NCBI RefSeq assembly: GCF_007673095.1
Contig: NZ_VDYZ01000007.1
Span: 62,001 to 126,000 of the forward strand
Direction: 5' to 3'
Source of the DNA: Corynebacterium glyciniphilum AJ 3170
GTDB lineage: Bacteria; Actinomycetota; Actinomycetes; Mycobacteriales; Mycobacteriaceae
Length of the DNA: 64,000 nucleotides
Notes under the pieces: model-generated
The model's input: only the letters and a program-made list of their open reading frames with translations
Told to the model about the DNA's origin: nothing
The model's database searches: none
In this document: positions 41,905 to 64,000 of the stretch, piece by piece
How positions within the stretch are numbered: position 1 is the stretch's first letter
How the letters are laid out: each line of letters starts with the position of its first letter
Made by a program: the position numbers and the translations under genes

Positions 41905-42006
41905 TCTACTTGATAGATCTATCAAGTAGCTATCAAGTAGAACTGTCAGTGCAGGTCAACGGGCTTGTCTACTTGTCATCGGATCTATCAAGTAGCTATC
42001 AAGTAG
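41905..42006. repeat. 102-bp direct repeat, copy B (CTATCAAGTAG array)
   Basis: Same layout as copy A: reverse 11-mer 41906-41916, forward 41919-41929 and 41930-41940, 28-nt spacer, half site 41969-41975, forward 41985-41995 and 41996-42006. The TGA stop of aftD (42001-41999) is contributed by the last motif copy. It lies immediately upstream of the AlbA_2 gene and so also contains that gene's promoter region. Confidence 0.95.
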
Positions 42007-45000
42007 GCTCATCGTGTCGCGCCCGGGTCCCACCGGCAAGCGCACCGCACGCCGTGGACACCAGGCAACCGAGGAACAGCAGCTCCGGGATCCACGAGTA
42101 GCCCGCGTAGTCTCCGCCGCCCCACGACCCACGCACCATCAGCACCGCGCCTGCGCCGCCCAGGATCATCGCCAGGGTGGTCGGCCTGGTCAGGTGGCGG
42201 AGGATCCGGACACCCCGCGAGCCGGCGATTCGCCCGGGGAGACGGCGGACACCAGCGGGCACACCGAGGACGAGTGCCGTCGTCGCCGCACCGACGATCC
42301 CGCCGGGAACACCGGCGACTCCGACCGACAACGCGAGCATACCTGCACCGGCAAGTACCCGCCGGGGGGCGACGGGCCGACTGCCAGACGCCTCCACCAC
42401 CTGGTCCGTCCCGGCGGAACGTCGTGCGGGCCACCGTGCGTTCCGTGCGCTCCAGGCGCACAGCCAGCCGAGCAGCAGCACCAGCGCGCCGAGCAGTCCC
42501 GCGCCCAGCCACCGCTGGTAGGTGTCCGTCGCAGTGAACCTGACCTCGAGGGTCGACGTGATCTCCTCGTCCGACATGCCGTCGGCCACGCCCGCCGGGA
42601 TGACCCACCCCTGCTGCCAGCCGTTGACCGTCACCGACTCCAGTGCGGTCCCGTCGAGTTCGGCGGCGCGTCCGCTGTTCACGGCGGTGGAGGTCACGAC
42701 GATCCGGTCGTCGGGCGCGGTTCCGTCGCTGTCGACCGCTGTCGCTGCGCCAGACCTCTGCGTCTCGCCGTCCTGCACATCGAGGGAGACCCACCGGTCG
42801 CGGCTGCGGACCTCGTGCTCGCCGGGGGCCAGCGTCACCGTGCCACCGCAGTTCACCGGCGCCCCGTCGAGGGTGCTGGCAGTGTCCCTGCCCGCGGCGC
42901 AACGGTCGGATGTCAGTGACACCCTGACCGGTTCCGCTCCCTCGGGCACGGTGATGACACGCCTCATCTCGAACTCGTAGATCTCCTGCCCCAGGACCCA
43001 CCGGCGCGGTGTCCCTTCCCCGGACGGCACGACGATGTCGCGGCGCGGGGTCACGTCCTGGCCGCTGGCCAGCTCGGTGAGGGTGATCTCGCTGAGCCCC
43101 GGGTCCCCCCAGGAACCGACGATGCGCAGCTCGACCCGGTCCGCCTCCCCGCTGGGCAGGACGATGGGCCGGTCACTGCTGTCGGTCTCGCGGTAGCCCG
43201 GTACCAGCGTGGTCGTGGAGGCCACGGTCTCGCCGTCGAGGTACGTGGTGGCCTGGACACGTACCGGGCTGCCGGCGGCACGTGCCGACAGTGACATCTG
43301 GGAGCGGGGTTCGTCCAGGTCGACGGTGAGTGTCTGGTTGATCGGGGACCCGGTGCCCGGTCGCCAGGCCGTCTCCGTGACACCGTCGACCGCGGCGGAC
43401 GGCCCGGAATACGGTTCCGCCCCGTTCAGGGACGTCGGGTCGGCGGCGGAGGAGCTTGCGGTGATCCCGCCGCCACGCTCCCGGACCTGGGTGAGCTCGG
43501 CGTCATCGAGTCCGGTGGGGTAGTCGCGGACCGGGTTCCGGGTGTCGCGCGCGTCGTCGACGGCGCGGATGTCGGATTCGGCCCCGGTGACGTTGCCGTA
43601 GTTGTGCTCCCGCAGGGTCGGGGTGTCGGTCACCGTGTCGGGAACAGGAGCCCTGTCAGCACCGGTACCGTCAGGAAGATCCTGGACGAGGATCCGGTCG
43701 CGGGGCGTCCGTCCCGCTGCGGCATCGGCGGCGGCGAGACGGGGCAGTACCTCCGGGCCCCCGGCCGTGACCTCCAGGTCGGCGGCGTCGACCACGTGCG
43801 AGCGACCCCCTGTGTAACCGCCGTCCACCCGGAAGATCCGGATGTCCCCGTCGCCGATGTCGGCGACCTCGGTGAATCCGCCCGCCGCCGCGGAGTCGGT
43901 GAGCGTGCGCAGGACGGCCCGGGCGCCGGGCGTGTCGGCGGTGCGCGCCAGGTCGGTACGCACCAGCAGATATCCCACGCCCTGCTGCAGCAGGGCGTCC
44001 GCCAGCGCCGGGTTCGCACCGGCCGCCCCGTCGGCGACGAACTCGCGTTGGATCCCGTCGAGTCCGCGGATCGCCTCCGGCGGCACCAGGGGGACGGCGT
44101 CACGCACCACCCACGGCACGTCCAGCAGCGACTGCGCCGGTTCGTCCCGCGTATTTCCCCAGGTCTGCCGGGCGGTACGCGCCTCCGGCAGGATCATGGT
44201 GCGGGTCTCGTCGGCGCCGTTGGCCGGGTCGTTGAGCCAGTCCGCGGCCTCCTGCCAGGACGACGGCACACCGCGGTAGCCGTCCTCGGGCACCAGCCGC
44301 CCGGTCCACGCCGGCGCGGTGGCGACCGCCACGACCAGGGCAACCGCAGTGGTCGTCACCACCGACCGGTTCTTCTCCGGATGCAGCCACGTCGTGGCGT
44401 CCCGCGGGACGGTGAGCCCGCCGAGGACGTGGGCGACCCCGACGACCAGCGGGAGATGGATCAGGGGGTCGAACTTGTGCAGGTTGCGCAGCGGTGCCCC
44501 GGCACCGTCGAGGAACGCCTGGACCTGCTCGGCGACCGGGGAGAACGGTGTGGCGGCCACACCGAAGACGGCCACGCCGACACCGAGGATGACCAGCCAT
44601 GACCCCGCGAACGGTACAGGACGGCGTGGACGTCCCGTCCCCGCCAGCCCTGCCAGCCCCAGCAGGGCCACCACCAGTGTCGCAGCCACGAACACCGCTT
44701 CGGTGGCCACGGCGAACCCGGCCTGGCGCTCGGTCGACAGGAACGCCGTCCAACTCGTCGCCCCCCGCAACACCTCACCCAGGTTGAACCAGTGGGTGGT
44801 CAGCCCGGCGGCCTCGATGTAGTCGGTGAACGGCGGGGAGTACCGCCCCAGGATCACCAGTGGTCCGATCCACCAGAAACAGGCGAGCACCCCACCCGGG
44901 ATCCACCAGACGGCGAACCGCCATGCCGTGCGGCGACGCACCGCTGCGTCGCCGCCGGTCGCGAAGACCCCCTGTGTCAACCACCACAGCACCGCGGGCA

Positions 45001-45583
45001 CCACCGCCGCCAGCGTCGCCACCGCATTGACCGCCCCCAGGCAGAGCACCGCGACGGCGGAACCCAGCCCGGCGACGGCGAGCCGTCGGGTCGTCGGACG
45101 CGGCCCCGGCAGCAGTACGCGAACGACCGGCAGCATGATCCACGGCACCAGCGCCACCGTCCACGCCTCCGAGGAGATCGCCCCGAGCGTGGTGAGGATG
45201 CGTGGGCTCAGGGCGAACAGGACCGCCGCCACCAGCCGTGACAGCCGCGACCCGGCCCCCGTCGCCTCCAGGAGTCTGACCACCCCGGCGAAGGCGAGGA
45301 ACAGCAGCAGCGCCCACCACAACCGCTGGGTCAACCAGTCGGGGAGTGGGTCGAGCAGGGCGAAGAAGAGGCCCTGGGGGAAGAGGTAGCCGTAGGCCTG
45401 GTTCTGGAGCTGTCCCAGGGGGAAGACATCCGTCCAAGGGGACAGGGCCTGCGTGAGGAAACCCCACGGGTTCGCCGTGAGGTCGTGTTTGGTGTCGGCG
45501 ACGGTCAGGCCCGGCCCCTGGATCAGGGCCAGGAGAAGCCAGAGGAGGCCGGCCAGGCTCCAGCCGCGACGGGAGAGTGTCAC
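41999..45583 (-). CDS. aftD: Alpha-(1->3)-arabinofuranosyltransferase AftD-like
   Basis: 1194 aa, GT-C membrane glycosyltransferase of arabinan (arabinogalactan/lipoarabinomannan) synthesis using decaprenyl-phosphoryl-arabinose. The N-terminal 440 residues carry about eleven hydrophobic segments with the early acidic loop (TVADTKHDLTANPWGFL). Next come a large periplasmic region (about 450-1060) with discoidin-like carbohydrate-binding stretches (TAWRPGTGSPINQTLTVDL) and C-terminal hydrophobic segments. It is shorter than mycobacterial AftD (about 1400 aa), as is common in corynebacteria. GTG 45583 follows the DUF2613 gene by 22 bp, like Rv0236A-Rv0236c. The last codon and stop come from repeat B, so the extreme C-terminus is altered. 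Confidence 0.9.
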   Translation of the reverse strand: MTLSRRGWSLAGLLWLLLALIQGPGLTVADTKHDLTANPWGFLTQALSPWTDVFPLGQLQNQAYGYLFPQGLFFALLDPLPDWLTQRLWWALLLFLAFAGVVRLLEATGAGSRLSRLVAAVLFALSPRILTTLGAISSEAWTVALVPWIMLPVVRVLLPGPRPTTRRLAVAGLGSAVAVLCLGAVNAVATLAAVVPAVLWWLTQGVFATGGDAAVRRRTAWRFAVWWIPGGVLACFWWIGPLVILGRYSPPFTDYIEAAGLTTHWFNLGEVLRGATSWTAFLSTERQAGFAVATEAVFVAATLVVALLGLAGLAGTGRPRRPVPFAGSWLVILGVGVAVFGVAATPFSPVAEQVQAFLDGAGAPLRNLHKFDPLIHLPLVVGVAHVLGGLTVPRDATTWLHPEKNRSVVTTTAVALVVAVATAPAWTGRLVPEDGYRGVPSSWQEAADWLNDPANGADETRTMILPEARTARQTWGNTRDEPAQSLLDVPWVVRDAVPLVPPEAIRGLDGIQREFVADGAAGANPALADALLQQGVGYLLVRTDLARTADTPGARAVLRTLTDSAAAGGFTEVADIGDGDIRIFRVDGGYTGGRSHVVDAADLEVTAGGPEVLPRLAAADAAAGRTPRDRILVQDLPDGTGADRAPVPDTVTDTPTLREHNYGNVTGAESDIRAVDDARDTRNPVRDYPTGLDDAELTQVRERGGGITASSSAADPTSLNGAEPYSGPSAAVDGVTETAWRPGTGSPINQTLTVDLDEPRSQMSLSARAAGSPVRVQATTYLDGETVASTTTLVPGYRETDSSDRPIVLPSGEADRVELRIVGSWGDPGLSEITLTELASGQDVTPRRDIVVPSGEGTPRRWVLGQEIYEFEMRRVITVPEGAEPVRVSLTSDRCAAGRDTASTLDGAPVNCGGTVTLAPGEHEVRSRDRWVSLDVQDGETQRSGAATAVDSDGTAPDDRIVVTSTAVNSGRAAELDGTALESVTVNGWQQGWVIPAGVADGMSDEEITSTLEVRFTATDTYQRWLGAGLLGALVLLLGWLCAWSARNARWPARRSAGTDQVVEASGSRPVAPRRVLAGAGMLALSVGVAGVPGGIVGAATTALVLGVPAGVRRLPGRIAGSRGVRILRHLTRPTTLAMILGGAGAVLMVRGSWGGGDYAGYSWIPELLFLGCLVSTACGALAGGTRARHDEPT

Positions 45584-52187: not shown

Positions 52188-52709
52188 TCAGCGTGCGAGC
52201 AGGTCGCGGAGTTCGGCGACATCCTGCGCGACGTCGTCGAGGAGCGCGTTGTAGGCATGAGTAGAACTGAACCCCACCGGGTCCTGGTGGTCGTGCTGGA
52301 CCCTGGGGAGATCGTGGCGTACATGGGGAAGTTGTGTGAGCGAGGTCAATGCGCCGCTGCGGTGCCATTCAGCGAGCTGATGGAGACGGAATGTCCGCGT
52401 CATCGCCGTCGGCGCTGTACGCAGGCAACGGTCCACGTGAACCTTCTCTAGCCCGACAACGAGGTCGGCGTCCTGCAGCAGACGGCGGCTCACCCGACGT
52501 GCGACGAAGCCGCGCCCGTCGATCCCGTGATTGTCGAGGAAAGCCATCGACCGGTCGTCCATCGGGTAACCGGTCATCCCCGCAGTTCCCGCACTGCCGA
52601 CCGTCAGCGACGTGAACCCAGATGCCCCGTGGGAGACGGTCTCGCGCAGCAGGTGCTCGGCGACGGGGGACCTGCAGATGTTGCCGGTACACACGAAAAG
52701 AATCCTCAT
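52188..52709 (-). CDS. Low-molecular-weight protein tyrosine phosphatase
   Basis: 173 aa. The P-loop is FVCTGNICRSP with nucleophile Cys7 and Arg13, and the general-acid loop appears as DPVGF near residue 145, the LMW-PTP layout. Such phosphatases (Wzb type) dephosphorylate the tyrosine-rich tails of polysaccharide co-polymerase kinases; the likely partner is the kinase at 59442-60986. ATG 52709 overlaps the upstream acyltransferase stop (ATGA). The frame is open further upstream through that gene, but homology starts at ATG 52709. Confidence 0.92.
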   Translation of the reverse strand: MRILFVCTGNICRSPVAEHLLRETVSHGASGFTSLTVGSAGTAGMTGYPMDDRSMAFLDNHGIDGRGFVARRVSRRLLQDADLVVGLEKVHVDRCLRTAPTAMTRTFRLHQLAEWHRSGALTSLTQLPHVRHDLPRVQHDHQDPVGFSSTHAYNALLDDVAQDVAELRDLLAR

Positions 52710-53900: not shown

Positions 53901-53906
53901 TACAAT
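53901..53906 (+). promoter_or_regulatory. Putative -10 element of leaderless GT4-pyruvyltransferase gene
   Basis: TACAAT, close to the TATAAT consensus, with exactly 7 nt (GTCTTTC) before ATG 53914. There is no ribosome binding site in that gap. Confidence 0.6.
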
Positions 53907-53913
53907 GTCTTTC

Positions 53914-56397
53914 ATGACCAACGTCGACAGGTCCCTCACCCTGCCGTCGGAAGCCAGGACACTCTGGGTTCACTGGGGTCGCACCGGTGGCGGCCCCAGA
54001 TTCCTCGCCGATCTTGTCGACGGGGACCGGAACCGCGAGTCTCTCCGGGTCGGCGACGCCGACCAGCATGTCCAGACTTCCGTTACGCCCGCAGTGTCTC
54101 AGGCGCCGAACTCTCCGCACCCTCTGTCCTTCCTCTCCTACAATCCGGACGCCGAGATCGCGCCGCGTTTCGCCGCCCAGGCCCGTGGCGGCGTCCCGGC
54201 GTTCCCGGTACCGACCTACACCTCGACGACCGGAGTCATCCTCGGCCTGCCCCGACTGGTGTGGAACTCCCTCCGGTTGCGCCGGTGGATCCGGTGGCAC
54301 CGCATCGAGCGGGTGGTGTGCGTGATGGAGAGCGTCTACCAGTCGCTCGCCCTGCCCGTGCTGGTCCCCGGTGACGTGGAGTACGTCTCCTGCATCCACG
54401 ACGGGTCCGCGCACCCCGGGGAGGGCAGTGTGGTCCAGTCAGTCGGTCGGCACAACGAGCTGCGCCGCGCCGACCGGGTGGTGACCTTCTCGGAGGCGGT
54501 GACCGGGATCCTCGCCGACCAGGTGACGGTGCCGGTCACGACCGGCGACCACCCTCCGTTCGATCTAAAGGATGCGGCGACCAGGCCGCGCGACCTGCCA
54601 CAAGGCTCGGGGCAGCTACCGGTCATCGGCCTGTTCGGACGCCTGCAGAAGTACAAGGGCATCGACGTCGCCCTGGCGGCGATGCGCATCCTGGAGGAAC
54701 GGGGAGCTCCGGCATGCGAGCTGCGGATCATCGGCTCCGGACCGGAGGAACGGCTGCGCGAGACCCCGCTCGGAAACTACGCCACCTGGGACAACCGGTG
54801 GATCCCGGAGGACGAGGTCACCGACGTCGTCCGTGGCTTCGACATCATGCTGCTGCCCTACACCGAGGCCAGCCAGTCCGGGCCGGTGACCCTGGCACTG
54901 GCACATGCGGTGCCGTGTGTGGCGACCCCGGTCGGGGCGATCCCCGACCAGGTGGACGGGTTCGGGGTGGTCACTGATGACATCAGCCCGGAGGCCATCG
55001 CCGACGGGATTGAGAGTCTGCTCACCGACCCCGCCCTCTACCGCGCGCTGTCGTCCGGCGCGATACGTCGAGTGGCCGAGCAACCCGACTGGTCGGATCT
55101 GGCGTCCCTGATCCGCAGTGGTTCGCAGGCCCACCCGGCCCCGTCGCCGTCCGCCGATCCGGTGCTCTCGCGCCGGGAACGGGCAGTGGCACAGGCCAAG
55201 TGGGCGGGTCAGCGCGTTGTCGGCCTGATCAACTCTCACCGGCCGTTGCCCCGTGCCCGCCCTGCCAACGGTGGGTCAGCGACCGGGCGGGTGAGGGTGG
55301 TGCTCCCGGCCTCCCACGGCTCCTTCGGCGACGAGGCCATGGGGCTCGTCGCGGCATCCTCCCTGCAGCACCTGCTGGCAGAGGCGGGCCTCGACACCGG
55401 TGTGGACCTCGTGGTCCCCGGTGACGCAGGCCCGTGGCGGCGCCTGGTGCCCGCGGATGTCGGTGTCATCCCACTGAGCGACCTGACCGTCGGACGCGGT
55501 ACTGTCCCGACCGCCACGACGGTGCGGGAACTCGCGTCCGGACCGTTGGTGGTCATCGGTGCGGACACCCTCGCCGGCGACTATGAACTGGCGTTGCTGG
55601 CGACCCGGGTGCGGATGCTGAACGTCGCTGCTGCGGCGGGCCACCCGGCGGCGTTGGTCAACTTCAGCCTGCCGACGACGGTCCACCCCGCCGCCGCCCG
55701 TATCCTCCGGAGCCTGGATCCGGGAGTGCTGGTGCGCGCCCGCGACCGGCTGTCAGCGCAGCGCGCCACGGAGATCCTCGGGCGGACGGTGTCGAGCACC
55801 CCCGATATCGCGGCACTGCTTCCGCCGACACCACGTAGCGAGCGCTCGACGGCACCTGTGGTCTTCGTACCGAACGCCCACCTCGGTGGCATGTACGGCG
55901 TCGGCACAGGGCACCTCGTCACCCTGTGGCGCGACCTCGGCCTCAGGATGCGGGAGCAGGGGGGTGACCGCCCGGTCGAGGTCGTGGTGCACGACATCCG
56001 CGACAGTGTGGGCGATGTCGCGCTCGGCCGCCGCATCGTCGACTCCCTGGCGGAGGCGGGCGTGGAGGCCACGCTGACCGTCCCCGCCACGGCCGCCGAG
56101 GCAAAGGCTGCCATCGCCGGCGCGGGCTACTGCGTGTCGGCTCGGATGCACGCCTGCGTGGCCGCGTTGAGTAGCGGGGTCCCCACCGTCGGGATCGGCT
56201 ACGTGGGGAAGTTCAGTGGTCAGTTCGACTGGTACGGGGACCTGGGCTCGGTGCTGGAGTACCGTCCCGACCTCACGGCCGACGAGATCCTGGAAAGGAT
56301 CGCCATCGTCCAGGGAGGCGCGGTGACCACGTGCGCATCCGTTACCGACCTGGTCCGCAGTGACTACGGCGCGCTGGTCGGTGCGGCGTCCCGGTAG
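53914..56397 (+). CDS. Fusion of GT4 glycosyltransferase and polysaccharide pyruvyltransferase
   Basis: 827 aa. Residues about 1-400 are a GT-B glycosyltransferase (VIGLFGRLQKYKGIDVALAA, then LPYTEASQSGPVTLALAHAVP). After a linker rich in Pro/Ser/Arg (about 400-450), residues about 455-825 form a polysaccharide pyruvyltransferase domain: SFGDEAMGLVAASSLQHLL at its start, VSARMHACVAALSSGVPTVG and KFSGQF near its end. One polypeptide would thus add a sugar and a pyruvate ketal, giving an acidic polysaccharide. ATG 53905 is in frame but lies on the TACAAT promoter box, so ATG 53914 is used. It is convergent with the lipoprotein gene and opposite to the rest of the locus. Confidence 0.87.
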   Translation: MTNVDRSLTLPSEARTLWVHWGRTGGGPRFLADLVDGDRNRESLRVGDADQHVQTSVTPAVSQAPNSPHPLSFLSYNPDAEIAPRFAAQARGGVPAFPVPTYTSTTGVILGLPRLVWNSLRLRRWIRWHRIERVVCVMESVYQSLALPVLVPGDVEYVSCIHDGSAHPGEGSVVQSVGRHNELRRADRVVTFSEAVTGILADQVTVPVTTGDHPPFDLKDAATRPRDLPQGSGQLPVIGLFGRLQKYKGIDVALAAMRILEERGAPACELRIIGSGPEERLRETPLGNYATWDNRWIPEDEVTDVVRGFDIMLLPYTEASQSGPVTLALAHAVPCVATPVGAIPDQVDGFGVVTDDISPEAIADGIESLLTDPALYRALSSGAIRRVAEQPDWSDLASLIRSGSQAHPAPSPSADPVLSRRERAVAQAKWAGQRVVGLINSHRPLPRARPANGGSATGRVRVVLPASHGSFGDEAMGLVAASSLQHLLAEAGLDTGVDLVVPGDAGPWRRLVPADVGVIPLSDLTVGRGTVPTATTVRELASGPLVVIGADTLAGDYELALLATRVRMLNVAAAAGHPAALVNFSLPTTVHPAAARILRSLDPGVLVRARDRLSAQRATEILGRTVSSTPDIAALLPPTPRSERSTAPVVFVPNAHLGGMYGVGTGHLVTLWRDLGLRMREQGGDRPVEVVVHDIRDSVGDVALGRRIVDSLAEAGVEATLTVPATAAEAKAAIAGAGYCVSARMHACVAALSSGVPTVGIGYVGKFSGQFDWYGDLGSVLEYRPDLTADEILERIAIVQGGAVTTCASVTDLVRSDYGALVGAASR

Positions 56398-58167: not shown

Positions 58168-59394
58168 TCAGTGGGACGAGATGCCCCGGTGGTGGTCGGT
58201 GTACTTTCCCCCACCGTAGCTGTTCTCGTGCCGCACCGGCCGCAGCGCGATCACCAGGAAAGCCACCGCGGCGAGGATCTGCACCACCACGATGCCGCCC
58301 AGCAGGACGGCACCTGAGGTCGCCAACAGAGCGAGGAGCGGGACGAGGCGTCCGACCGACCACACGAGGAATCCCCTGTCATGGCCTTTCATCAGGGGGA
58401 TCTTCACCGACAGGTTCGTCGCCAGCGACGCCACGCAGAACACGGCGGTCGTGGCGAGGACCAGGGGGGTCAGGGCGTCGTCCTCCGGCAGGGAGAAGAC
58501 CAGCGCCCCGGTCTGGATCACAGCGCTCACAGCGCCGAGCAGCAGGCCGCCGACGGCACAGATCCGGCACCAGCGTCGGGTGACCGCGGCGTCACCCTTC
58601 CGGATCGCCGCAGCGATCTTCGCCTCCAGCGACGGGGCGATGACCTGCTGGGCCAGGGACCCGAAACCACCGGTGAGACGCACGACGACCGCCCAGATCT
58701 CCTGGTACTGGCCCAGGAACGGGGTGAGGAAGCCCTGGATCTGGAAACCGCACTCCGACAGCAGCGTCGCACCTGTGGCCCGCGACGAGACGGCGAGGTA
58801 GCCGCGGTGTTCCCGGTCCAGGAGCCGCGGCAGGTCGCGGACGAACACCGTGACCAGCCGGTTACGGGTACGGGCCACGATCAACACCGCACCCACGAGC
58901 GGATTCACGATCGCAGCGACGATGAGGCCGGCCTGGAACGGGACGACGAACACCACCACGACGGTCACCAGGACGTTCACCACCCCGTAGACCAACCGGG
59001 CAGTGGAGTAGACGTCCATCCGCTGCTCCTGGGTCGCCACGGCGACGGCCATGAGGTAGACCCCGTTCGAGATGACGAGCAGCGCCGTCCACCCGGCCAC
59101 GGCCGCTGCTCCGGGCACACCGACGGTGGCCAGGATGCCGGCGACACCCGCGCACACCAGTGTGGTCGACAGCAGTGCACCCAGGGACACCGATGTCGCG
59201 GTGCGCCGCACCGGGTCCGCCAGCGTCAGATACCGGCTGTGGAACCCGAGGACCGAGGTCCGGGACAGTACCGTGGCGAGCGCCAACGGCAGCATCAGGT
59301 AGGCCAGTTGTCCGGTCTCCTGCCCGATGACCGGCAGGAGCATCGCCAGGAAGTTCAGACCCTGGCCGATCAGTGCGGGGCCCATGCGTACCAC
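58168..59394 (-). CDS. Wzx-like polysaccharide flippase (MATE/oligosaccharide exporter fold)
   Basis: 408 aa with about twelve hydrophobic segments and few charges in the membrane, a basic loop pattern (SLEAKIAAAIRKGDAAVTRRW near residue 265) typical of Wzx/polysaccharide biosynthesis proteins. It would flip undecaprenyl-linked repeat units across the membrane. The start is uncertain (GTG 59394, or ATG 59385 three codons later). It is 11 bp upstream of the M20 gene and 47 bp after the kinase in the same direction, so part of a Wzx/Wzy-like operon. Confidence 0.82.
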   Translation of the reverse strand: MVRMGPALIGQGLNFLAMLLPVIGQETGQLAYLMLPLALATVLSRTSVLGFHSRYLTLADPVRRTATSVSLGALLSTTLVCAGVAGILATVGVPGAAAVAGWTALLVISNGVYLMAVAVATQEQRMDVYSTARLVYGVVNVLVTVVVVFVVPFQAGLIVAAIVNPLVGAVLIVARTRNRLVTVFVRDLPRLLDREHRGYLAVSSRATGATLLSECGFQIQGFLTPFLGQYQEIWAVVVRLTGGFGSLAQQVIAPSLEAKIAAAIRKGDAAVTRRWCRICAVGGLLLGAVSAVIQTGALVFSLPEDDALTPLVLATTAVFCVASLATNLSVKIPLMKGHDRGFLVWSVGRLVPLLALLATSGAVLLGGIVVVQILAAVAFLVIALRPVRHENSYGGGKYTDHHRGISSH

Positions 59395-59441: not shown

Positions 59442-62159
59442 TCAGCGGTCCGCTCCCACCGTCTCCCCGGAGGCGGCGTCCGATGAGTCGGCAGCGTCGA
59501 CCGCATGCCGCGCCGGCTGGGCCGCAGGCTGCGACGTCTCCGACGCCGTCGCTGCCTGTGAGGCCCGCTGGACGGCGGCCGCGGTGTTTCCGTAGCCGTA
59601 CCCGTTGCGGTAGTAGCTCTTGCCCTCGGACTTCGGGGTCATGGTGAACACGGTACCCAGGACGTGCGCTCCGACCTGGGTGAGGTTGCTGGTGGTCCGG
59701 GTGAGCTGGTCGACGGTGGTGTCACCGTGGCTCACGGCCAGGATCAGACCGTCGACGGCGGAGGACACCAGGGCGGCGTCGGTCACCGGAATCACCGGAG
59801 AGGCGTCGACGATGACGTAGTCGTACCGGGCGTCCAGATCGGTCAGCACGTCACGGAAACGCCGGGAACCGAGGAGCTCGGCGGGGTTCGGCGGCTGAGG
59901 ACCGGAGGTGACCACAGTCAGCCCGTCGCGACCGGACTCCTGCACGATGTCGTCCACGCCGGCGGCACCGGACAGGACGGTCGACAGTCCGACCTCGGAC
60001 TGCAGGTCTCCACCGAGGTAGTCGGCGACGCGGGGGCGACGCAGGTCCGCGTCGACGAGGCACACCCGTTCACCGTCGTCCGCCAGGGCGAGGGCGAGGT
60101 TCGTGGCCACCGTCGACTTGCCTTCACCGGGCATGCCGCTGGTGACGGCGATGACCGTCGGCGGGTTGTCGACATCGAGGAAACGCAGGTTGGTGCGCAG
60201 TTCGCGGAACTGTTCAGCGGCGATCACCGGTGCCGCGGCGAAGTCGAGGACATGGGAGCCCGCGGACCCGGAGAGGTTGTCACTGGTGCTGATCGTGCCG
60301 ATCGCCGGTGCACCGACGATGTCGGCGATCTGACGACGGTCACGGATCCGGTTGTCGGTCATGCCGCGGACGACGGCCGCGACGAGGCCGAGGACCAGTC
60401 CGGCGCCGGCACCGATACCCACGTTCTGCAGGATCTTCGGTGAGGACGGCGCATCGGGGGTCAGCGCATCGTTCAACGGTGCCAGCTGGGGTGCGCTGGA
60501 CGGCCCGTCGGGCGCGGTGGTGGTGTTGAGCTCGGCGACCATGGCGGTCAGCTGGGCGGCGGCGGAGTTGGCGAGATCGCGGGCCTCCTCGGCGTCCCCC
60601 GCCACGGCGTTGATGTTGAGGATCACCGTGTCGCGGTTGGCCCCGGCGGTGAGCATCGAGGCGACCTCCGCCGGGCTCTGGTCGAGCCCGAGGTCCCGGG
60701 CGACGCGCTCACCGAGCGCCCGGCTGGTGGCGATCTCGGCGTAGGTGCCGACCTGGCTCTGGCTCAGCAACGTGCCGCGGTAGGCGTCGGTGGAGTTGCC
60801 GGTGTTCGCCGCGCCGACGTACAGCTGGGAGGTCGCGGTGTACTGCTTGGTCATCAGGGCGGACGCGCCCCAGCCGAGGAGGCCGCCGATGACGGCACCC
60901 ACGATGAGCATCCAGAACGACGTGCGCAGGTACCCCAGATAGGTGGCCAGATGGTTCTGTTCTGAAGGGGAGGAGGGGGTGGTCATGGGGATCCTTTTCT
61001 GGTTGGTGTGTTCTGTCTGTTGCGTCCGGTACTTCTCCATGAGCGCGACGGCACCCACGATCAGCGGCACCATCGGGGTGGCGTGGCGTAGTGCTGACCC
61101 CCAGTCCGGCTCGAAGAGCCCCTGGACCACGAGGAAGGACAGGGGCACCGCGGCGAAGCGGGCCATCATCCGGCGGTCACGGACCGGGACACGGTGGCGG
61201 TCACCGCCGTGGGCGCGTGCGGTGGCCGTCGCCGCAGCCACCGCGCTGATCCAGACCAGGGCGAAGAGAAGACCGATCACCAGGTAGTACGGGGAGAACT
61301 TCGCGGCCATCGGCAGCGGGACGATGAAGAACATCGTGGTCAGCACCACGTTCACCACACCGCCGAAAGGCTCAGGCAGATCAATGAACCGCCCGATGAT
61401 CGACCCGGTCATCGCCTGCCGGGCCTCACCCTCGTTCACCGCGGTGCGGAAGTAGTCGGCCGGGTCGCCGGTCCCGATCCAGACCGCCAGCCCGGCCAGC
61501 GCGCTCAACAGGGCCAGGATGCGCAGCACCCGCCAGGGCGTCGCGGCGATGCGGCGTCCCGACACGGTGGACCGTCGGGCCAGCAGGAGCCGCAGGACGA
61601 CGTAGATGACCGCGACGACGGACCAGTACGTCCGGTACTCGGTGCCGAGCAGGGCGAGCGCGGCGACGACCACGATCTCCCCGGCCAGGTTCACCGGCAT
61701 CAGCACGATCACGATCATGCCCAGGGATATCAGGATCTCCTTGGTGTAGGTCGCCTGGTACAGGCCGATGAGTACCGGGGTGGCCAACGCCAGGACGAGC
61801 GATATCCTGCCGGCGTGCACCCCGCCGACGCGCACCAGGACGATACCCAGTGCCGTCGACCCGATCACCGCGCCGAACACAGAGGCTGCGGTGGGCGCGT
61901 CCTCCATGCCGAGGGCGGTGTAGAACTGTGCGATCACCGAGTACGAGCCGTAGCCCAGGTCCATCGCACTGAACGGGGAGGTCATGATCTCCCGGATGGT
62001 GCCGGCGTCGTTACCGAAACCACCGAATCGTCCGGTGATCGTGGCGCGGGCCACCAGGCCCACGACCACCGCCACCGTGCCGAGCAGCACCGCAACCAGC
62101 AGTGGCGAGTTCAGACTGGTCGTCAGCGGGCTACGTCCGGCGTCTGAGCTTCTGCGCAT
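59442..62159 (-). CDS. Membrane polymerase-like protein fused in frame to polysaccharide tyrosine autokinase
   Basis: 905 aa open frame. Residues about 1-391 are a polytopic protein with about ten hydrophobic segments, resembling EpsG/Wzy-type polymerases (GFGNDAGTIREIMTSPFSAM loop). From residue 392 it is a complete Wzc/CapAB kinase: Wzz-type segment (FWMLIVGAVIGGLLGWG), outer domain, second helix, then a BY-kinase domain with Walker A GMPGEGKST, Walker A' VCLVDADLRRP, Walker B YVIVDASP and a tyrosine-rich KSYYRNGYGYGN tail. No stop separates the halves. The junction reads like non-coding sequence and contains its own start. ATG 62159 is preferred (AAGGAGG upstream); ATG 62216 has no such site. 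Either a real fusion or two products from one frame. Confidence 0.8.
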   Translation of the reverse strand: MRRSSDAGRSPLTTSLNSPLLVAVLLGTVAVVVGLVARATITGRFGGFGNDAGTIREIMTSPFSAMDLGYGSYSVIAQFYTALGMEDAPTAASVFGAVIGSTALGIVLVRVGGVHAGRISLVLALATPVLIGLYQATYTKEILISLGMIVIVLMPVNLAGEIVVVAALALLGTEYRTYWSVVAVIYVVLRLLLARRSTVSGRRIAATPWRVLRILALLSALAGLAVWIGTGDPADYFRTAVNEGEARQAMTGSIIGRFIDLPEPFGGVVNVVLTTMFFIVPLPMAAKFSPYYLVIGLLFALVWISAVAAATATARAHGGDRHRVPVRDRRMMARFAAVPLSFLVVQGLFEPDWGSALRHATPMVPLIVGAVALMEKYRTQQTEHTNQKRIPMTTPSSPSEQNHLATYLGYLRTSFWMLIVGAVIGGLLGWGASALMTKQYTATSQLYVGAANTGNSTDAYRGTLLSQSQVGTYAEIATSRALGERVARDLGLDQSPAEVASMLTAGANRDTVILNINAVAGDAEEARDLANSAAAQLTAMVAELNTTTAPDGPSSAPQLAPLNDALTPDAPSSPKILQNVGIGAGAGLVLGLVAAVVRGMTDNRIRDRRQIADIVGAPAIGTISTSDNLSGSAGSHVLDFAAAPVIAAEQFRELRTNLRFLDVDNPPTVIAVTSGMPGEGKSTVATNLALALADDGERVCLVDADLRRPRVADYLGGDLQSEVGLSTVLSGAAGVDDIVQESGRDGLTVVTSGPQPPNPAELLGSRRFRDVLTDLDARYDYVIVDASPVIPVTDAALVSSAVDGLILAVSHGDTTVDQLTRTTSNLTQVGAHVLGTVFTMTPKSEGKSYYRNGYGYGNTAAAVQRASQAATASETSQPAAQPARHAVDAADSSDAASGETVGADR
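60984..60998 (-). promoter_or_regulatory. Internal start and ribosome binding site for the kinase half
   Basis: AAAAGGA (minus strand, 60998-60992) lies 5 nt before ATG 60986, where MTTPSSPSEQNHLATYLGYL opens exactly like a normal Wzc/CapA-type protein. Independent initiation here would give a 514-residue kinase ending at 59442. Confidence 0.55.
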
Positions 62160-63246
62160 ATGTCCTCCTTCCTGTGAGTTCGAGGGCCAGCGAGTAAGCC
62201 TCCGTGAGTGCCGCACGCTGGCGTTCGGGTGTGTGGGATTCGTCGAGGCCGGCCCAGTGCGACGGGTCGCGGCGGTCCCGCAGGATCGCCACCGCCTTCG
62301 CCGCAGCGTCCCCTGGAGAGTCGAACCGGGCGGTGGCCGGGCACTCCCGCAACGCGGGGATGTCGCGCACCAGCAGCGGGACGCCGACTCGTCGCGCTTC
62401 GAGCACCGCCATGGGGAATCCGTCCCACCGGGCGGTGTGCAGGACCAGGGACAGCCCGGCGACCTGTCGGCGTAACTCCTCTCCGGACAGCCACCCGGTC
62501 ACCTCCACACCGGCAGTGGTCAGGACGTCGACCAGCGAGGCGTCCTTACCGTCCCCGGCACCGACCCACACGAACCGCGCGTCGGGGACCTGCCGACGGA
62601 TCAGTCGCGCGGTCTCGGCGAAGAACGCCGGGTCACGTTGTGGTGTCACCCGGGAGACCACCCCGACGACGGGGCGCGCCACGTCCTGCGGGGGCGACCA
62701 GCTTCCCGGCACCGCCGGGTGGTCGTCCATCAGGGCGTTGGGCACGACGACGACAGGTGTCCGGCCCAGGCCGACCATCAGCTCGCCCTCCCACTGTGCG
62801 CAGGACGCGCCGACGGTGGTCAGCGGGTGCAGGGAGCGCTCCATCGCACGGAACGCCCGACGTTTCCACCGGGGGATGTCGGCACGCTCGAAGGCGAAGC
62901 TGTGCGGGGTGTAGACCACGGGCCGTGCCGGGCGTCCCGGGGTGACCAGGTCGAGGGACCGGGCGACCCGGGTGTAGGCCCCGGCGAAACTCGAGTGGGC
63001 GTGCACCACGTCGGGACGGTGGTCGGCGACGGTTCGGCGCACCGCCGTGACCGCGGAGGCGAGGGACGACGGAAGCCGCTCGTCCACGGCGAACGCGCCG
63101 GGGGAGCGGGCGGCGGTCGGTGCGGTGCTGCGGGCGTTGTTGGACAGCAGCAGGTGGCGGTACTCCGGGGTCAGCCTGGCGTACTGGTTGACCGCGGTGG
63201 CCACCCCACCGTCGAAGCAGTCGGTGACGTGCAGGATGCTGGTCAT
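62131..63246 (-). CDS. GT4 family glycosyltransferase
   Basis: 371 aa, GT-B fold: N-terminal DCFDGGVATAVNQYARL, HAHSSFAGAYTR loop, and C-terminal VVGVVSRVTPQRDPAFFAE with TARWDGFPMAVLEARRVGVPLL, which carries the nucleotide-sugar-binding Glu. It probably extends the undecaprenyl-linked repeat unit. Its ATG 63246 directly follows the stop of the priming transferase gene (no gap), and its end overlaps the start of the polymerase-kinase gene by 29 bp, both signs of tight operon packing. Confidence 0.9.
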   Translation of the reverse strand: MTSILHVTDCFDGGVATAVNQYARLTPEYRHLLLSNNARSTAPTAARSPGAFAVDERLPSSLASAVTAVRRTVADHRPDVVHAHSSFAGAYTRVARSLDLVTPGRPARPVVYTPHSFAFERADIPRWKRRAFRAMERSLHPLTTVGASCAQWEGELMVGLGRTPVVVVPNALMDDHPAVPGSWSPPQDVARPVVGVVSRVTPQRDPAFFAETARLIRRQVPDARFVWVGAGDGKDASLVDVLTTAGVEVTGWLSGEELRRQVAGLSLVLHTARWDGFPMAVLEARRVGVPLLVRDIPALRECPATARFDSPGDAAAKAVAILRDRRDPSHWAGLDESHTPERQRAALTEAYSLALELTGRRTYAQKLRRRT

Positions 63247-64000
63247 CTAGTACGCCCCCCTCGACAGGAGGACCGCGCGGACGGTGTGCAGAATGGTGCG
63301 GATGTCCAGCATGAGCGACCAGTTGTCCACGTAGTACAGGTCCAGTTTCTCCGCCTGCGTGGGGGTGAGGTCCGAGCGGCCCGAGATCTGCCACAGTCCG
63401 GTGATGCCGGGCCGGACCTCCATACGCATGCGCATGTCGTCGCCGAAGGCGTCGACCTCGTGCTGCAGGTGTGGACGGGGCCCCACGACGCTCATCGTCC
63501 CGAACAGGGCGTTGACGAACTGCGGGAGCTCGTCGATGCTGGTCTTCCGGATGAACCTGCCGACCTTCGTGACCCGCGGGTCGTCCTTCATCTTGAACAG
63601 CCCGTCGGCGCCGACGTCCTCGCGGAGCTTCTGCAACCGTTCCTCGGCGTCGGTGTGCATGCTGCGGAACTTGAAGATCCGGAACGACTGGCCGCGGTAG
63701 CCGATGCGGTCGCTGACGTAGAACACCGGGCCGCGGTCCTCCAGCTTGATCGCCAGAGCCGTGACCGCCAGGATCGGCGAGACCGCCACCAGGGCGAACG
63801 CGGAGACGGCGATGTCGAAGAGCCGCTTGGACAACCCGTTGGCCGCGTTGAACCGGGGGCGGTCCACGTACAGCGTGTGGCTGGGGCCGAACGGCACCAC
63901 GTTCAGCCGGGTGCCGGCGATGCCCTCGATCATCGGGTCGAGGTAGAGGCGCATGTTCAGCCGGTCCAGGTGCCAGGAGAGCCGACGCAGGTTGCGGTGG
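63247..64000 (-). CDS. Exopolysaccharide priming sugar transferase (undecaprenyl-phosphate), N-terminus outside window
   Basis: About 251 visible residues; the frame stays open to the right edge, so the polytopic N-terminal part lies beyond 64000. The last membrane helix (LFDIAVSAFALVAVSPILAV) leads into the catalytic domain: KFRSMHTDAEERL, KTSIDELPQFVNALFGTMSVVGPRPH with the DE catalytic pair, and RPGITGLWQISGRSDLT, then an end typical of WbaP/CpsE proteins. It transfers a sugar-1-phosphate to undecaprenyl phosphate, the first step in repeat-unit assembly. It is upstream in the same operon as the GT4 and kinase genes. Confidence 0.93.
   Translation of the reverse strand, partial: HRNLRRLSWHLDRLNMRLYLDPMIEGIAGTRLNVVPFGPSHTLYVDRPRFNAANGLSKRLFDIAVSAFALVAVSPILAVTALAIKLEDRGPVFYVSDRIGYRGQSFRIFKFRSMHTDAEERLQKLREDVGADGLFKMKDDPRVTKVGRFIRKTSIDELPQFVNALFGTMSVVGPRPHLQHEVDAFGDDMRMRMEVRPGITGLWQISGRSDLTPTQAEKLDLYYVDNWSLMLDIRTILHTVRAVLLSRGAY

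Follow-up and report, generated by a model that had tools for sequence, protein, structure and literature searches.

Proteins of the Wzc, Etk and CapAB type (PCP-2a) combine a Wzz domain with two flanking transmembrane segments, Walker A and B motifs and a cluster of tyrosines in the tail. Wzc is an octamer, and in the enterobacterial common antigen system the polymerase WzyE and the co-polymerase WzzE form a physical complex, with WzyE in the middle of a WzzE ring at a WzzE:WzyE ratio of approximately 8:1, as described in PMC10030265. PMC12004945 gives 10-14 transmembrane segments for O-antigen Wzy, and describes the association of Wzy with its co-polymerase, and their ratio, as still to be worked out. 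Here we describe a locus of Corynebacterium glyciniphilum AJ 3170 that likewise pairs a putative polymerase with a co-polymerase. Whereas WzyE and WzzE are two separate proteins at about 1:8 (PMC10030265), the two parts would here be linked in one chain, and the subunit needed in excess would probably come from an internal start. The kinase half has the PCP-2a features listed above and is related in sequence to members of solved structure (e.g. 3bfv and 7nhr) but, unlike the PCP-2a type, is preceded in frame by a polytopic, polymerase-like domain. Among the matches listed in the open-access literature, none was recognised as describing a polymerase fused in nature to its kinase, which does not prove that no such account exists.

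The DNA analysed is a stretch of 64,000 nucleotides, referred to below as the window. On its minus strand a frame of 905 codons runs from an ATG at 62159 to a stop codon that ends at 59442, with no internal stop (Table 1), confirming what a sequence-only reading had claimed for this region. The first 376 residues make up a polytopic membrane domain; a linker (residues 377-391) and a complete Wzz and BY-kinase protein (residues 392-905) follow. The start codon sits 29 bases within the 3' end of the upstream GT4 glycosyltransferase gene. The linker had been said to resemble intergenic DNA, which is a fair description given its GC content of 0.53 against 0.69 over the whole fused frame. Because 79% of shuffled 15-codon linkers from the window were also free of in-frame stops, the window junction taken alone is weak evidence for a fusion. 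No sigma-70-like site was found in a promoter scan of positions 60700-61500, a scan that says little for this organism.

Table 1. Positions in the window of the fused gene, its parts and its neighbours.
Feature	Position	Strand	Remarks
Fused frame: putative Wzy-type polymerase domain, linker and Wzz/BY-kinase	59442..62159	-	905 aa + stop
Shine-Dalgarno AAGGAGG of the full-length start	62164..62170	-	Strong; duplex with 16S tail -15.8 kcal/mol
N-terminal polytopic membrane domain, residues 1-376, putative polymerase	61032..62159	-	21-row alignment, hydropathy
Linker, residues 377-391	60987..61031	-	Low-GC, unconserved; 15 codons here, 15-36 in relatives
Internal Shine-Dalgarno AAAAGGA	60992..60998	-	Read in frame via rare Arg codon AGG
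Internal ATG (Met392), predicted start of free 514-aa kinase	60984..60986	-	Invariant in 12/12 aligned fused frames
Wzz (chain-length determinant) domain, residues 406-490	60690..60944	-	PF02706 30.9 bits, cut-off 25.5
BY-kinase ATPase domain, residues 669-814	59718..60155	-	AAA_31 42.8 bits, cut-off 27
Tyrosine cluster of kinase tail (Y849, Y850, Y854, Y856)	59592..59615	-	
Upstream GT4 glycosyltransferase	62131..63246	-	29-base overlap with fused gene
Phosphoglycosyl transferase (Bac_transf)	63247..63954	-	As listed in window; open frame continues past window end
Wzx-type flippase candidate	58168..59394	-	About 8 hydrophobic segments; PF13440 below cut-off; no NCBIfam match
Low-molecular-weight protein tyrosine phosphatase (Wzb-type)	52188..52709	-	Start set at Met of MRILFVC

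The kinase half is an ordinary Wzc-type protein, with Walker motifs, a Wzz domain ahead of them and C-terminal tyrosines as in BY-kinases of the PCP-2a class. Its Wzz and AAA_31 domains score above their cut-offs, and it passes the NCBIfam tyrosine autokinase model TIGR01007 (163.9 bits, cut-off 108.05), bearing out the earlier description of a complete Wzc-type kinase. The Wzc equivalog model NF008568 gave 109.9, far below its cut-off of 1068. Walker A (SGMPGEGKS) is found at residue 674 and Walker B (VIVDASP) at 782; a pattern search for Walker A' returned no match in the kinase, yet LVDADLRRP is present at 701-709.

For the membrane domain, hydropathy suggests approximately 10-11 transmembrane segments, the exact number being uncertain. 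The loop that precedes the final two segments is basic, which points to a C-terminus in the cytoplasm, where the Wzz part needs it, and the topology of the two parts is compatible with a fusion without proving it. An alignment of 21 members revealed a conserved EPDxGSxLRH motif close to the end of the domain, and invariant charged residues that include D51, K140, E141, R176, D235, R238, E350, D352, R358 and H359. None of the 21 members matched a Wzy, EpsG or O-antigen polymerase model of Pfam at E values up to 1; two matched DUF1290 weakly (best E 0.054). NCBIfam likewise returned no polymerase for the window domain, its sole match being a weak one to SecY2 (0.0048), far below the cut-off of that model, and neither PHROGs (three members) nor a PDB profile search gave a polymerase match, the latter linking the domain to no solved structure. 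AlphaFold models had a mean pLDDT of 37.6 for the membrane domain (5-row alignment) and 32.8 for the whole fusion (4 rows), and were unusable. As no such model matches, the domain lies outside the curated polymerase families. The label 'Wzy/EpsG-like' given to it earlier finds support in operon position and none in family models, and we describe the domain as Wzy-type by context, not as a curated Wzy member.

That context consists of an operon-like order of phosphoglycosyl transferase, GT4 glycosyltransferase, fusion and flippase candidate, with the Wzb-type phosphatase and two acyltransferases nearby. These are the components of a polysaccharide locus that depends on Wzx and Wzy. Polytopic proteins were surveyed in window positions 40001-64000 and in the 19.5 kb L142, counting frames of at least 150 codons with GC3 above 0.8. 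Besides the fusion, those with at least five hydrophobic segments were the phosphoglycosyl transferase, the flippase candidate, the two acyltransferases, AftD, an MFS transporter and a histidine kinase. A neighbouring protein with nine segments was tested and is the MFS transporter. With the other polytopic proteins of the surveyed stretch assigned, the fused membrane domain is therefore the remaining polymerase candidate, and its operon position, multiple membrane segments and invariant charged residues lead us to infer a polymerase function. Two further genes of the region deserve mention. An AftD-type arabinofuranosyltransferase lies near the locus at 42002-45583 on the minus strand (PF11847, E 1e-233), and at 53905-56397 on the plus strand the locus has another fused architecture, an 830-aa frame that begins with a GT4 glycosyltransferase domain and continues into a polysaccharide pyruvyl transferase domain.

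To place the junction in a wider setting, 242 genomes of the genus were searched with the membrane domain, records present in two collections being counted once. The domain was detected in 21. In 13 of these it runs into the kinase with no stop at the junction (G000, G200, G209, G029, G039, G115, G237, G027, G023, G229, G206, G038 and G236), while in four genomes of a single lineage (G223, G012, G076 and G189) a long linker leads up to an in-frame TAA that immediately precedes the ATG of the kinase. No kinase was found in the 14 kb covered at the domain in the other four (G214, G238, G154 and G155), nor anywhere in the genome in the three of these that were searched (G154, G214 and G238). The stop-free junction is thus present in 13 of the 17 genomes with adjacent parts. 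Its linkers span 15-36 codons and differ in sequence, the frame is kept in all, and identity to the window over the whole fused protein falls to 36%. This recurrence lifts the window junction above chance. We conclude from the comparison that the frame is best taken as a genuine, conserved fusion gene of the Corynebacterium group and not an accident. The sequence-only reading had proposed that sister strains be checked for a junction stop; the relatives compared here are species, not strains, and they mostly favour that reading, 13 of 17 lacking the stop and one lineage of four having it. The fusion is not needed for a locus of this kind, since those four genomes retain the stop.

Several individual genomes have features of their own. 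The TAA-ATG junctions, with their long, low-complexity linkers, can be seen as the natural equivalent of the fusion with a stop codon. In the close relative Corynebacterium sp. CNJ-954 (G200) the junction is open, and a separate frameshift farther into the kinase divides that part in two beyond about residue 587, which may be real or an assembly error. The linker of G115 is made up largely of TRQ repeats with a 9-base unit, a possible source of length change that keeps the frame. G154 and G155 carry, in place of the kinase, a long, acidic, low-complexity extension at the C-terminus of the polymerase-type domain, in an open frame of 672 aa.

Outside the genus the membrane domain is rare. A search at the level of the family found it in 3 of 301 genomes, all of the window's genus, and a search of the class found it in one other genome of 394, from family f45; both scored 5-6 candidates per genome, and misses are possible in either. 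Within f45 the domain occurs in 5 of 60 genomes, and the window kinase was not found at the five loci concerned (18 kb searched for one, about 4 kb each for four). The kinase itself is present in 115 of 296 class genomes at E 1e-40. At eight loci opened elsewhere in the class, six of them taken for their long open frames, no polytopic domain lay upstream in frame of the kinase; one locus had a lone hydrophobic stretch upstream. None of 112 matching plasmid records reached 80% query coverage. In trees of the membrane domain and of the kinase the main fused clade had support of 100/100 and 100/99, respectively, and a second fused clade (G236, G206 and G038) was supported at 92/91 and 100/98 in the two trees; several rows have long branches. 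The TAA lineage falls beside the main fused clade in the membrane-domain tree (93/89) and beside the second fused clade in the kinase tree (99/98). As this lineage is placed differently in the two, the trees make no choice between a single origin followed by a split and two origins.

A second feature of the frame is a potential start codon at Met392, preceded by an A-rich Shine-Dalgarno sequence as had been pointed out earlier. Met392 is unchanged in all 12 intact fused frames aligned, although it lies within an unconserved linker, and a Shine-Dalgarno core precedes it in 12 of the 13 fused genomes, G236 being the exception. In all ten genomes of the main clade this core is supplied by an AGG codon followed by A, 3-4 codons upstream of the Met; AGG accounts for 51 of the 672 Arg codons in the 13 fused frames, those ten included. 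When the same peptide was redrawn with synonymous codons at each gene's own codon usage, a core arose with P 0.02-0.19 in each of the 12 carriers. Sites as strong as the internal one do occur at 11%, 20% and 17.5% of codon positions in G237, G027 and G023. The region from -30 to +20 is weakly structured, with 0.00-0.052 of frame windows folding as weakly in 12 of the 13 genomes (0.249 in G236), and in the nine genomes compared it carries less structure than the region of the 5' start. Against synonymous redraws, the weak fold reached P < 0.05 in no more than 6 of the 13 genomes, so the weak structure is partly borne by the peptide. In the window, the duplex energy with the presumed 16S tail sequence is -6.3 kcal/mol for the internal site against -15.8 kcal/mol for the 5' site, and because the latter is so much stronger the free kinase may be a minor product.

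Only one kinase of this type is encoded in each of the 13 fused genomes (E 1e-12), its two pieces in G200 belonging to one gene. With the kinase in single copy, a lack of internal initiation would leave these genomes with no free co-polymerase of this kind. The frame has what marks a candidate dual-product gene, a conserved in-frame start with its Shine-Dalgarno sequence inside an open frame, and we consider that the one gene probably yields a free kinase of 514 aa besides the fusion of 905 aa. A comparable arrangement is found in SctQ, where a single frame produces the full-length protein and a C-terminal product from an in-frame internal start. For the HrcQ/SctQ sorting-platform genes, PMC8553256 reports an internal translation start that is important for this secretion component; the SctQ/HrcQ proteins are, however, unrelated to the fusion, whose parts are two separately known kinds of protein.

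The explanation that we favour, and hold to be probable, is a genuine polymerase-kinase fusion in a Wzx/Wzy-dependent locus with a second start that also gives free kinase. It could be argued instead that two separate proteins are made, a sequencing error, frameshift or processing having hidden the junction stop. The intergenic look of the linker would fit this, as would the lineage that does have a stop. Four fused genomes (G029, G229, G038 and G236) are, however, assemblies of one or two contigs, and for this reason assembly error is not the general explanation; the 13 open junctions moreover have different linkers, and the frame is kept despite their differing lengths. We regard this alternative as highly improbable. 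There is also some chance, though a small one, that only the fusion is made, every kinase bearing a polymerase and the internal ATG and Shine-Dalgarno sequence being an unused relic of a formerly separate kinase gene. G236 speaks for such a relic, being fused with neither the core nor an unstructured site at the Met even though 85% of its synonymous redraws have a core, and in the window the strong 5' Shine-Dalgarno sequence favours full-length translation. On the other side, AGGA and the ATG have been kept in all ten main-clade genomes while the linker diverged in sequence and length, and four-fold sites are near saturation between the two halves of that clade (identity 0.44-0.49, expected 0.37-0.39, for G000 against G237, G027 and G229). 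Given this divergence across the clade, a relic start throughout it was thought less likely. Conservation within the window's half alone is weak evidence, as four-fold sites there are not saturated (G000 against G039, 0.577, expected 0.406). One polymerase on every co-polymerase subunit would also conflict with the 8:1 ratio described in PMC10030265.

A different objection concerns the identity of the membrane domain, which could be another envelope glycosyltransferase or a scaffold, tying the kinase to a different enzyme. The lack of a polymerase assignment from Pfam, NCBIfam, PHROGs and the PDB profiles agrees with this. Against it, the domain is the unassigned polytopic protein in a locus with a phosphoglycosyl transferase, a glycosyltransferase, a flippase candidate, a co-polymerase and a phosphatase, and the stand-alone copy in G214 follows Bac_transf and GT4 genes arranged as they are in the window. 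A non-polymerase identity accordingly seems unlikely to us. The earlier proposals of a genuine fusion, and of a frame giving both a fused and a free kinase, are both supported by the comparison, and they are mutually compatible.

Under the favoured explanation of a fusion accompanied by free kinase, a single chain would hold the Wzy-type polymerase domain, a hydrophilic and presumably cytoplasmic linker, and the Wzc-type co-polymerase and tyrosine kinase. Ribosomes that start at 62159 must make the 905-aa fusion, no stop intervening, and those that start at the conserved Met392 signals would give the free 514-aa kinase. In a Wzc-like ring one fused subunit could then tether one polymerase while free kinase supplied the remaining subunits, so that the polymerase would never be without its chain-length regulator and the ring would not be overfilled with polymerases. 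As to the suggestion that fusion fixes the stoichiometry, a fixed 1:1 ratio fits poorly with the approximately 8:1 Wzz:Wzy ratio of PMC10030265: a ring of this sort would be crowded if every subunit were fused, but not if fused and free protein were mixed. By this analogy the fusion may have a role in stoichiometry, and the free kinase would probably be the important part of the proposal. The complete proposal, a natural Wzy-Wzc fusion that fixes stoichiometry through an internal start supplying extra kinase, with about one tethered polymerase per ring and a domain that has no Pfam model, is put forward tentatively, and we judge it somewhat more likely to be wrong than right.

A fusion kept across many species is natural evidence, from a Gram-positive lineage, that polymerase and co-polymerase act as a single complex. 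Because of the internal start, altering one codon is enough to test the ratio of polymerase to kinase, and sequence motifs are now available for a polymerase-like family outside the reach of Pfam.
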